64,000 bases of DNA from Arsenophonus nasoniae DSM 15247 (GTDB lineage Bacteria > Pseudomonadota > Gammaproteobacteria > Enterobacterales > Enterobacteriaceae). Shown in pieces: positions 1-25,861 of the stretch. Every line of letters begins with the position of its first letter. The stretch's first letter is position 1. Position numbers and translations under genes: made by a program. The DNA lies in assembly GCF_000429565.1 (NCBI RefSeq), contig NZ_AUCC01000009.1, positions 1 to 64,000 on the forward strand. Reading direction: 5' to 3'. The notes under the pieces were generated by a model that made no database searches, was not told the DNA's origin, and was given only the letters and a program-made list of their open reading frames with translations.

Positions 1-115
1 AGTTTTACAATTATTATCGACGCCATTCAACGATTGGTTATTTAACGCCACATCAAAAATATCATGAACTAAAAAATGCCGCTTAGATCTTCTACAGAAT
101 TTGTTGACCATTACA
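1..115 (+). mobile_element. Right end of an IS3-family insertion sequence
   Basis: The window opens inside an insertion sequence that interrupts nhaB. The + strand encodes the last 27 residues of an IS3-family OrfB transposase (stop at 84-86), and about 29 bases separate that stop from the point where nhaB homology resumes. The outer end is either near 105 (terminus reading TGGTCAACAAATT on the minus strand) or at 115 (terminus starting TGTAATGGTCAAC). The second is preferred because IS3-family ends usually begin with TGT or TGA. The other end and any target duplication lie outside the window, so the boundary is approximate. Confidence 0.8.
3..86 (+). CDS. IS3-family transposase OrfB, C-terminal fragment (starts before the window)
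   Basis: Only the final 27 residues are present. They include the motif [13 protein letters not shown], typical of the C-terminus of IS3-family DDE transposases (the R-R-H-S-x-x-G-Y-x-[TS]-P pattern after the catalytic glutamate). The catalytic core is off the window, so it cannot be said whether the transposase is intact. Which IS3 subgroup it belongs to cannot be decided from this fragment. Confidence 0.8.
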
Positions 116-1418
116 ACCGCCAGATATTCAAATTGTTGGCGTGATATTAATCCTTCTTTTAACGCACTTATTGCTTCATTTATATAGACAGTACCCACAA
201 AGACATTGTCTGAAATAGCAGAAAGTAACCCATTAAATAAGTAAAATAAAAATAGTTGCGATGATTCAGAGGACTGTAATACAAATTGAATAAATGGCGT
301 AAAAAGATGTTGATCAATAATAACTGCAACAATCGAGAAAAATACGGTTAATAAGGCGGTAAAGGGTAAAGCTTCTTCAAATGCTTTGCAATAGTGTGTT
401 CATCAGTGATGCCACAAAATGAGGTGATTAATATGATAACCGATAAACCAATTAAGCCGACTTCAGCAAGATGAAAAGCTAGAGCAATAATTAACCAAAC
501 ACCGACTAATGCTTGAGTTATTAGTTGCAATTTTTCCCGTCGATCTCGTTTTCTGCTCGCATTTTTATCGTGCATTTGCAAAATATGGCGGACGCTTTCA
601 GGTAATTCTGCACCGTAGCCGAATAGTTTAAAATGTTCGACGCAATAACAGATAATTAAGCCACATAAAAATACCGGTAATGTTACTGGGATCATATGTA
701 AAAAAAAAGCACTAAAATTCCAGCCAACATATTTAGCAATAATTAAATTTTGTGGCTCACCAACCATTGTCATTACACCACCTAATGCAGTTCCAATGCC
801 AGCATGCATCATTAGACTACGTAAAAAAGCGCGAAATTGTTCAAGGATCTGGTTTTTTCCCCTGGTATCCATGTTATCTCCTGGCTGGAGAGGCTCTTTC
901 TGACTGGATACATAGTTATGATAAATAGAATAAAAACCAACGGCTACACTGATCACGACAGCAATTACCGTTAGCGCGTCTAAAAAGGCGGAAAGTAAAG
1001 CGCTTGCTAAACAGAAAGCCAGTGACAGGATTCGTTTAGAATGAATAGACAGTAGTAATTTTGTGAAAGCAAATAACAACAATTGTTTCATGAAATAAAT
1101 GCCTGCTACCATAAAAATCAATAGCAATATCACTTCAATGTTATTGGCGATTTCATGACTGACTTGTTTCGGTGAAGTCATACCAATTATTATTGCTTCA
1201 ATAGCAAGTAATCCGCCAGGCTGTAGCGGGTAGCATTTTAGTGCCATGCCAAGGGTAAAAATAAATTCGGCAATTAGTAACCAACCGGCAATAAAAGGGT
1301 TAACGAAAAAAAAGCACAGTGGATTGATTATCAAAAAGAAAATAATGGTCAATTTGTACCATTCAGGGGAATTACCCAGGAAATTTTTCAACATAATTTG
1401 TCTGGTATTTATATTCAT
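116..1418 (-). pseudogene. nhaB: Na+/H+ antiporter NhaB, disrupted
   Basis: NhaB is an inner-membrane Na+/H+ antiporter of about 513 residues. Residues 1 to about 345 are in frame and rich in membrane segments. Near 384 one base has been lost: the sequence reads AAAGCATTT where AAAGGCATTT would keep the frame. The first frame then stops at 348. In the shifted frame the match resumes with TALLTVFF, Ser-Asp-Asn-Val-Phe-Val-Gly and YLAV, to about residue 434. At 105-115 the IS3-family element replaces the rest of the gene. With two lesions it is very unlikely to make a working antiporter. It is divergent from fadR, as in E. coli. Confidence 0.93.
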
Positions 1419-1645: not shown

Positions 1646-2368
1646 ATGATTATTAGAGCGCAAAGTCCCGCTAATTTTGCTGAAGAGTATATTGTTGAAA
1701 GTATTTGGAATAACCATTTTCCTCCGGGTTCAATTTTACCTGCAGAACGTGAGTTGTCTGAGTTGATCGGTGTAACGAGAACAACTTTACGAGAAGTTTT
1801 ACAGCGGCTTGCAAGGGATGGTTGGTTAACAATTCAGCATGGAAAACCGACTAAAGTAAACAATTTTTGGGAAACTTCAGGACTTAATATTTTAGAGACG
1901 CTGGCTCGGTTAGATCACAGTGGGGCACCAAAATTGATTGAGGATTTATTATCTGTTAGAACCAATATTTCCGCTATTTTTATTCGAACAGCTTTTCGTA
2001 AAAATAAACAAAAATCATTAGAGATATTATCAATAAGAGAGAATATAGAAGATTGTTCCGAAGCATTTAGTAGAGTTGATTATAATATTTTTCGTGGACT
2101 GGCATTTGTTTCTGGTAATCCTATTTATGGCTTAATCCTAAATGGGTTAAAAGGATTATATACCCGCGTTGGTCGTTACTTTTTTTCTGATCCTAAAGCG
2201 CGTCAACTTGCTTACGATTTTTACCATGATTTAGCTAAAATCTGTGAACAAGAAAAGTGTGAGCAGGTGTTAGAGCGGGTTCGTAGCTATGGTAAAGAGA
2301 GTGGCAATATTTGGCGTGAAATGAAAGATAAAGACAATATGATAAATAATTTGTCTGAATCACGTTAA
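1646..2368 (+). CDS. fadR: Fatty acid metabolism regulator FadR
   Basis: FadR is a GntR-family repressor of fatty acid degradation and activator of unsaturated fatty acid synthesis; long-chain acyl-CoA releases it from DNA. The 240 residues match the family length (239 in E. coli). The N-terminal winged helix-turn-helix is intact, including [20 protein letters not shown] at about residues 30-50, followed by the all-helical acyl-CoA-binding domain. The ATG at 1646 has an AGAGAAAAAT leader and gives the expected MIIRAQSP N-terminus. It is divergent from the broken nhaB, so any antiporter co-regulation is lost, while the gene itself looks functional. Confidence 0.97.
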
Positions 2369-25241: not shown

Positions 25242-25861
25242 GTGGTTGGTACTTTACTGGATCTGCCTAATTATATTAAGTTTTTTTTGGGGCTTTTTGC
25301 GTTAGTTAATCCGATAGGAATTTTGCCTGTATTTATTAGTATGACTAATTATCAATCTGTGACAGAAAGAAATCGAACTAATTTAGTAGCTAATTTTTCT
25401 GTGGCAATTATTTTATGTATTTCGTTATTGGTGGGTGAGGTTTTTTTTAAATTATTTGGTATTTTTATCGATTCTTTTCGTATCGCTGGTGGAATAGTTA
25501 TTGCGGCCATTGCTATGTCTATGATTAGTGGTCGAATAGGTGAAGATAAGCAGAATAAACAAGAAAAATCAGAAAGTGTTATTCGTGATAGCATTGGTGT
25601 TGTTCCTTTAGCACTTCCATTAATGGCTGGGCCTGGAGCAATCAGTTCATGTATTGTCTGGTCTTCTCGCTGGTTGGGATGGCAAAATTTAGTTGGTCTA
25701 TCGTTAACTTGTATCTTTTTCGCTCAGCAACAATTCTAGTTAAGTATTTAGGACAAACGGGCATTAATGTTATTACTCGTATTATGGGGTTACTATTAAT
25801 GTCACTTGGAATTGAGTTCATCATCACAGGGACTAAATCAGTTTTTCCCGGATTACTTTAA
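25242..25861 (+). pseudogene. ychE: MarC-family membrane protein YchE, frameshifted
   Basis: YchE is a six-helix inner-membrane protein of the MarC family (215 residues in E. coli, function unclear). Starting at GTG 25242 behind GAGGGA, the frame matches E. coli through MAGPGAISS and VGLSLT. The match then continues in another frame with [22 protein letters not shown] and FPGLL, ending at 25861. The distance between the conserved Val-Trp and Gly-Gln-Thr-Gly is 25 nt shorter than in E. coli. A deletion of about 25 nt near 25700-25712 therefore removed part of a helix and shifted the frame; the first frame stops at 25739. Both products lack the complete C-terminal half. Confidence 0.88.

Follow-up and report, generated by a model that had tools for sequence, protein, structure and literature searches.

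A probable young nhaB pseudogene, frameshifted and interrupted by an IS3-family element, at a contig end in Arsenophonus nasoniae

How did the gene for the Na+/H+ antiporter NhaB at the start of this contig come to be broken, how long ago did that happen, and what allows the bacterium to do without it? The window, which is the whole stretch of 64,000 nucleotides that we analysed, covers positions 1-64000 of contig C9, one of the 296 contigs that make up a 3.67-Mb draft assembly, and its position 1 is the end of contig C9. Excerpted text of Frost et al. 2020 (PMC7157526) describes the short-read assembly of A. nasoniae as broken by repetitive mobile elements, and contig C9 likewise starts where a repeat halted assembly. 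The features at this end of the contig are as follows.

1..115, plus strand: right end of an IS3-family element of 1256 bp, cut off by the contig end
3-86, plus strand: transposase C-terminus, last 28 codons including the stop, part of the IS right end
91-115, plus strand: right inverted repeat of the IS, part of the IS right end
116..389, minus strand: nhaB distal fragment, in a second frame, reaching the IS junction inside codon 435 (relatives' numbering)
389..390, minus strand: one-base nhaB frameshift, as seen against the intact nhaB of three Arsenophonus relatives
390..1418, minus strand: nhaB proximal fragment, in frame from ATG
1646..2368, plus strand: fadR, intact, the divergent neighbour of nhaB

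The nhaB remnant

The NhaB profile PF06450 matches two minus-strand frames of the window, at 1418-360 (profile 1-356, 579.6 bits) and at 390-109 (profile 347-440, 146.3 bits), which together cover profile positions 1-440; a search of the whole genome at E 0.001 yielded no further match and hence no second nhaB. When positions 1418-116 were aligned over 1304 positions to the intact genes of three relatives, a single gap appeared, at window 389-390, with identities of 93.6% to G004, 89.7% to G002 and 90.1% to G007. Within 12 bases of this frameshift, runs of a single base reach a length of 3 at most. On the strength of the two-frame match and the single gap against all three relatives, we agree with the sequence-only reading, which had placed a one-nucleotide frameshift at 384, about five bases from where we find it.

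The frameshift at about 389-390 would stop translation after 356 residues, before conserved aspartate 404. The proximal frame continues out of frame to 348 and retains aspartate 147; we take aspartates 147 and 404 to correspond to Asp146 and Asp404 in the NhaB of Klebsiella. Asp404 is named in an excerpt of PMC6817889 as one of two key aspartates in the Klebsiella protein, in which alanine mutants were strongly altered. The reading frame is destroyed at two sites, by the gap at 389-390 and by the junction with the IS at 115/116.

In relatives G004 and G002, fadR, nhaB and dsbB lie side by side. Here fadR adjoins the body of nhaB on C9 and dsbB adjoins its tail on a second contig, C117, from which we infer that C9 and C117 form one locus. 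Its family match (profile 1-440 plus the last codons) and its neighbours are those of the NhaB Na+/H+ antiporter (PF06450, TC 2.A.34) at the fadR-nhaB-dsbB locus, but the copy here is frameshifted, interrupted by the IS and without 194 bp, and judging from its sequence a functional NhaB product would not be expected from the C9 and C117 remnants. Plasmids yielded no nhaB: each of the 30 records that match within the window's first 1600 bases covers less than 80% of them, and among the 20 plasmid matches listed the match to these bases is the IS end alone.

The IS3-family element and the second junction

Window positions 1-115 coincide exactly with the right end of the IS, and nhaB begins at 116. 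This right end has 18 other matches in the same genome, 16 of them at least 92 bases long, and all 18 stop at query position 115-118. By our own count the genome holds at least 38 matches to the element, split evenly into 19 right and 19 left ends, a lower bound since 40 of 72 candidates were scored. Seventeen of the 19 right ends run into a contig end. Two right-end remnants are located inside contigs (C42:25981-26225, L042, and C100:222-274, L049), so truncated copies exist as well. Over its first 116-122 bases the window matches plasmids at 98.4-100%, all of them from A. nasoniae among the 20 matches listed, and the 30 records that match the first bases comprise 29 from Arsenophonus and one from Providencia.

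Full-length copies at three plasmid loci measure 1256 bp, are 99.6-99.8% identical and have the termini TGTAGTGGTC... and ...TTGACCATTACA. The terminal inverted repeats, read from these three copies, the window and C117, are 25 bp long and imperfect, with TG and CA ends. One copy (L050) carries two overlapping open reading frames in different frames, 1427-1741 and 1738-2586, of 104 and 282 amino acids. The second, ORFB, taken from a full-length copy on a plasmid of strain FIN, scores 285.7 bits against the IS3-family model NF033516 (cut-off 160), while ORFA alone scores 43.1 bits, under that cut-off. In length, termini and paired overlapping frames the element resembles other IS3-family insertion sequences (NF033516), and we saw nothing unusual in it. 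The exact right end and the transposase C-terminus at 3-86, on the strand opposite to nhaB, bear out the earlier proposal that an IS3-family element sits in this gene, with the junction at 115/116.

The far side of the insertion lies on C117, where IS sequence extends to base 335 and is followed by 14 nhaB codons and a stop (TEWFTSLGLINIAK-stop) and then by dsbB; the IS left end there is in matching orientation. The last 79 NhaB residues of a relative match C117 weakly (E 0.03), at the IS left end and over the last codons only. On C117 dsbB is intact (173 aa, 242.7 bits to a DsbB model). The IS left end is 261 bp upstream of the dsbB start (L075 336-596); between the two we found no forward promoter site for dsbB and three promoter-like sites on the other strand, where 1.9 would be expected by chance.

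The coding sequence of G004 nhaB is matched to base 1304 on C9 and again from 1499 on C117. The 194 bp absent in between were not found in a search of the rest of the genome (best E 1.15), and the lesion is therefore more than a plain insertion. Leftward of the window, the sequence-only reading had anticipated the other IS end, a target duplication and the remainder of nhaB; the other IS end and the last 14 codons are indeed on C117, but the 194 bp are absent and there is no target duplication. Target duplications of 3 or 4 bp flank 3 of 10 full-length plasmid copies, so their absence at nhaB says little. As a proof of insertion we discarded this feature as uninformative, 7 of the 10 full-length plasmid copies having none.

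Competing accounts of the lesion and its age

To place these lesions among the other broken genes of the draft, we compared 261 open reading frames of at least 150 aa, taken from 400 kb of G004, with the window, with C117 and with a further 400 kb from the A. nasoniae genome. Matches to these stretches were obtained for 106 frames, of which 16 were flagged; nhaB itself fell under the coverage rule in this comparison. By our reading of the flagged rows, six genes are broken mid-gene (YchE-type, nhaR, smdB, smdA, htpG and ybaK), and the other ten reflect gaps that are compensated, shifted ends or a different choice of start. Single-base frameshifts, by the same reading, occur in 4 of the 106 compared genes, nhaR included. 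The YchE-type transporter gene, at window 25341-25861, has 25 bases fewer than in G004 and a broken frame. The smdA, smdB, htpG and ybaK homologues, all on C2, carry a one- or two-base frameshift each relative to G004 (L204 5462-8913; L205 4603-6478 and 15943-16415), which is either real decay or sequence error. In the reverse comparison 108 of 315 frames matched and 12 were flagged, about four of which we read as broken in G004; G004 decays too, and the difference between the two genomes is thus small. The draft carries many young lesions, real or from sequencing.

We consider it very probable that nhaB is a young pseudogene that bears a frameshift, an IS and a loss of 194 bp, tolerated through overlap with NhaA and weak selection on the sodium response. 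The element interrupts the gene inside codon 435, and a single IS would have inserted; the 194 bp would have been lost either through a deletion next to it or when two copies on the same strand recombined. The segment may instead survive between two IS copies, given that the smallest contig of the draft is 1002 bp and anything shorter is missing from it. An arrangement of two same-orientation copies in nhaB, with the segment between them dropped from the assembly, would also fit the fact that each of the two nhaB pieces runs into IS sequence at the end of its contig, and one plasmid does hold two copies of the element some 0.8 kb from each other, albeit oppositely oriented. It requires, however, two same-orientation insertions within about 194 bp, and the lack of target duplications at 7 of 10 copies indicates that changes in the flanks of a single copy are usual; we regard it as unlikely. 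The 194 bp are either deleted or located between two IS copies, and one IS with a deletion is the simpler account, though unproved. The earlier two-lesion description of nhaB accordingly stands for the frameshift and the IS, and is incomplete in that either this segment is missing as well or two IS copies are present.

That the whole lesion is an assembly artefact, with a chimeric IS junction, a frameshift that is a sequence error and an intact gene behind both, seems to us very improbable. The IS part of the window amounts to 115 bases at a contig end, and with single-base frameshifts in 4 of 106 genes of the draft the nhaB and nhaR frameshifts could each reflect a sequence error. An error of that kind would not explain the IS lesion: it rests on two separate junctions, the second of which lies on a separate contig, in the same gene and in matching orientation, and the IS end is exact while the segment between the junctions is missing. 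A young pseudogene with one IS and a deletion remains our preferred account of the locus.

The coding remains also date the event. We counted a change as belonging to the A. nasoniae lineage when G002 and G007 agree and G004 is unchanged, codons at which G002 and G007 differ being left uncounted. Over 433 codons this gives 26 synonymous and 4 nonsynonymous changes and 0 stops, against 25, 0 and 0 in G004 over the same codons; the nonsynonymous excess over G004 is not significant (p 0.12). Had nhaB evolved neutrally over the whole branch, 62-86 nonsynonymous changes would be expected under four mutation models, which puts the pseudogene phase at about 5-7% of the branch, with an upper bound of 12-17%. 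Because what is left of the coding sequence differs from the relatives nearly only synonymously, the inactivation is recent, as had been proposed from the conservation of the code between the lesions.

Sodium genes in A. nasoniae and across the genus

Loss of NhaB would be tolerated in part because NhaA overlaps with it in function. The nhaA gene on C2 is open over 394 codons and scores up to 605.6 bits to NhaA models; over 395 codons, with G007 as outgroup, its lineage shows 21 synonymous and 4 nonsynonymous changes and 0 stops, compared with 27, 5 and 0 in G004. Being open and conserved, nhaA provides NhaB with a backup. Downstream of it, nhaR has a one-base frameshift at C2 ~2596, after codon 35 (L082, L201); past it the gene remains open, in a different frame, and its DNA is 97.0% identical to that of G004, with 11 synonymous and 2 nonsynonymous changes of its own. 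Selection on the whole sodium-stress response may also be weak, a second reason for tolerance suggested by the frameshift in this activator of nhaA. Three PF00999 proteins are open in the genome. PF01699, which we take to be the ChaA family, has no match in any of the nine Arsenophonus genomes compared, whereas the E. coli control matches.

In E. coli, according to an excerpt of PMC6307784, NhaR drives the Na+-induced promoter of nhaA, a second, sigma-S promoter is independent of NhaR, and NhaB is needed only in the absence of NhaA. Deletion of both antiporters halts growth at moderate Na+, as stated in an excerpt of PMC9408914.

Our genus set comprises nine Arsenophonus genomes, G000-G008, with G000 the genome studied here. 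The nhaB gene is intact in four (G002, G004, G007 and G008), broken in three (G000, G005 and G006) and unmatched in two; nhaA is intact in five (G000, G004, G005, G006 and G007), broken in G002 and unmatched in three. At least one of the two is intact in 7 of the 9, and two reduced genomes have neither. Of the six genomes in which we examined nhaR, G004 and G007 have it intact, G000, G005 and G006 have it broken and G002 has it disrupted. It is broken in all three genomes with a broken nhaB and intact in both with two intact antiporter genes, although these are tiny numbers, the G007 genome has a completeness of 72% and related species do not count as independent cases. The lesions differ. The nhaB lesions of G005 and G006 are unlike those in G000. 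The nhaR of G005 is split after roughly 12 codons by an insertion of about 1.06 kb, and its two pieces overlap by 9 bp, the kind of trace expected from a mobile element (C1, L222 4731-2756); in G006 the gene lies in three frames. The nhaR call is weakest for G002, where the frame changes near codon 281 and 9 positions are gapped.

Two genomes show the antiporter genes in other states. G002 has nhaA in three pieces with several stops (C6:222226-223233) and an intact nhaB, the reverse of the situation in A. nasoniae. G008, a strongly reduced genome of 0.8 Mb, has an intact nhaB (C1:81319-82845) and no nhaA match.

Across 39 genomes of the order, A. nasoniae included, both genes are intact in 21, only nhaA in 6, only nhaB in 5 and neither in 7, with an nhaA fragment in G035 (85% complete) counted as not intact and G025 being 89% complete; no direction of antiporter loss is evident. 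Our literature search found no paper pairing either nhaB or nhaR with Arsenophonus, and in the five papers found with Arsenophonus and antiporter neither of the two terms stands in a title or abstract.

Redundancy alone might account for the loss, NhaA doing the work and NhaB being dispensable whatever the host environment. The open, conserved nhaA, the E. coli requirement for NhaB only without NhaA (PMC6307784, excerpt) and the counts across the 39 genomes, 6 with only nhaA and 5 with only nhaB intact, all speak for this, and we treat it as a real possibility that is nonetheless somewhat doubtful. It does not explain why nhaR is broken too, in G000, G005 and G006, so that Na+ induction of nhaA is probably weakened as well, nor why both antiporter genes are absent from two reduced genomes of the genus. 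A wider reading, which we hold tentatively and doubt only a little more than we credit, is that the sodium-stress response of Arsenophonus collapses as a unit, repeatedly, leaving one Na+/H+ antiporter without its Na+-sensing activator NhaR. No ChaA was found in the genus, nhaR is broken wherever one antiporter broke (nhaB in A. nasoniae, G005 and G006; nhaA in G002), and which antiporter is kept differs by lineage. The earlier suggestion that the loss of nhaB fits an ionically stable host environment is possible on this evidence: the broken nhaR and the absence of PF01699 from all nine genomes agree with it, while the open nhaA and the antiporter kept in 7 of 9 genomes do not.

Pseudogenes created by IS elements and frameshifts are known in recently host-restricted insect symbionts such as Sodalis and Arsenophonus. 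With these the present case shares a multi-copy IS, recent decay and a related gene that is kept, and we see no categorical difference: nhaB here is a pseudogene of the ordinary symbiont kind, part of a sodium-response system in decay, and, taken as a single case, a textbook example of a gene hit by an IS in a bacterium restricted to its host. Across the nine genomes, nhaB, nhaA and nhaR decay through different lesions in different species. The genus thereby offers a small natural series on when symbionts stop needing a regulated sodium response, with a hint that Arsenophonus is losing its entire response to sodium stress.
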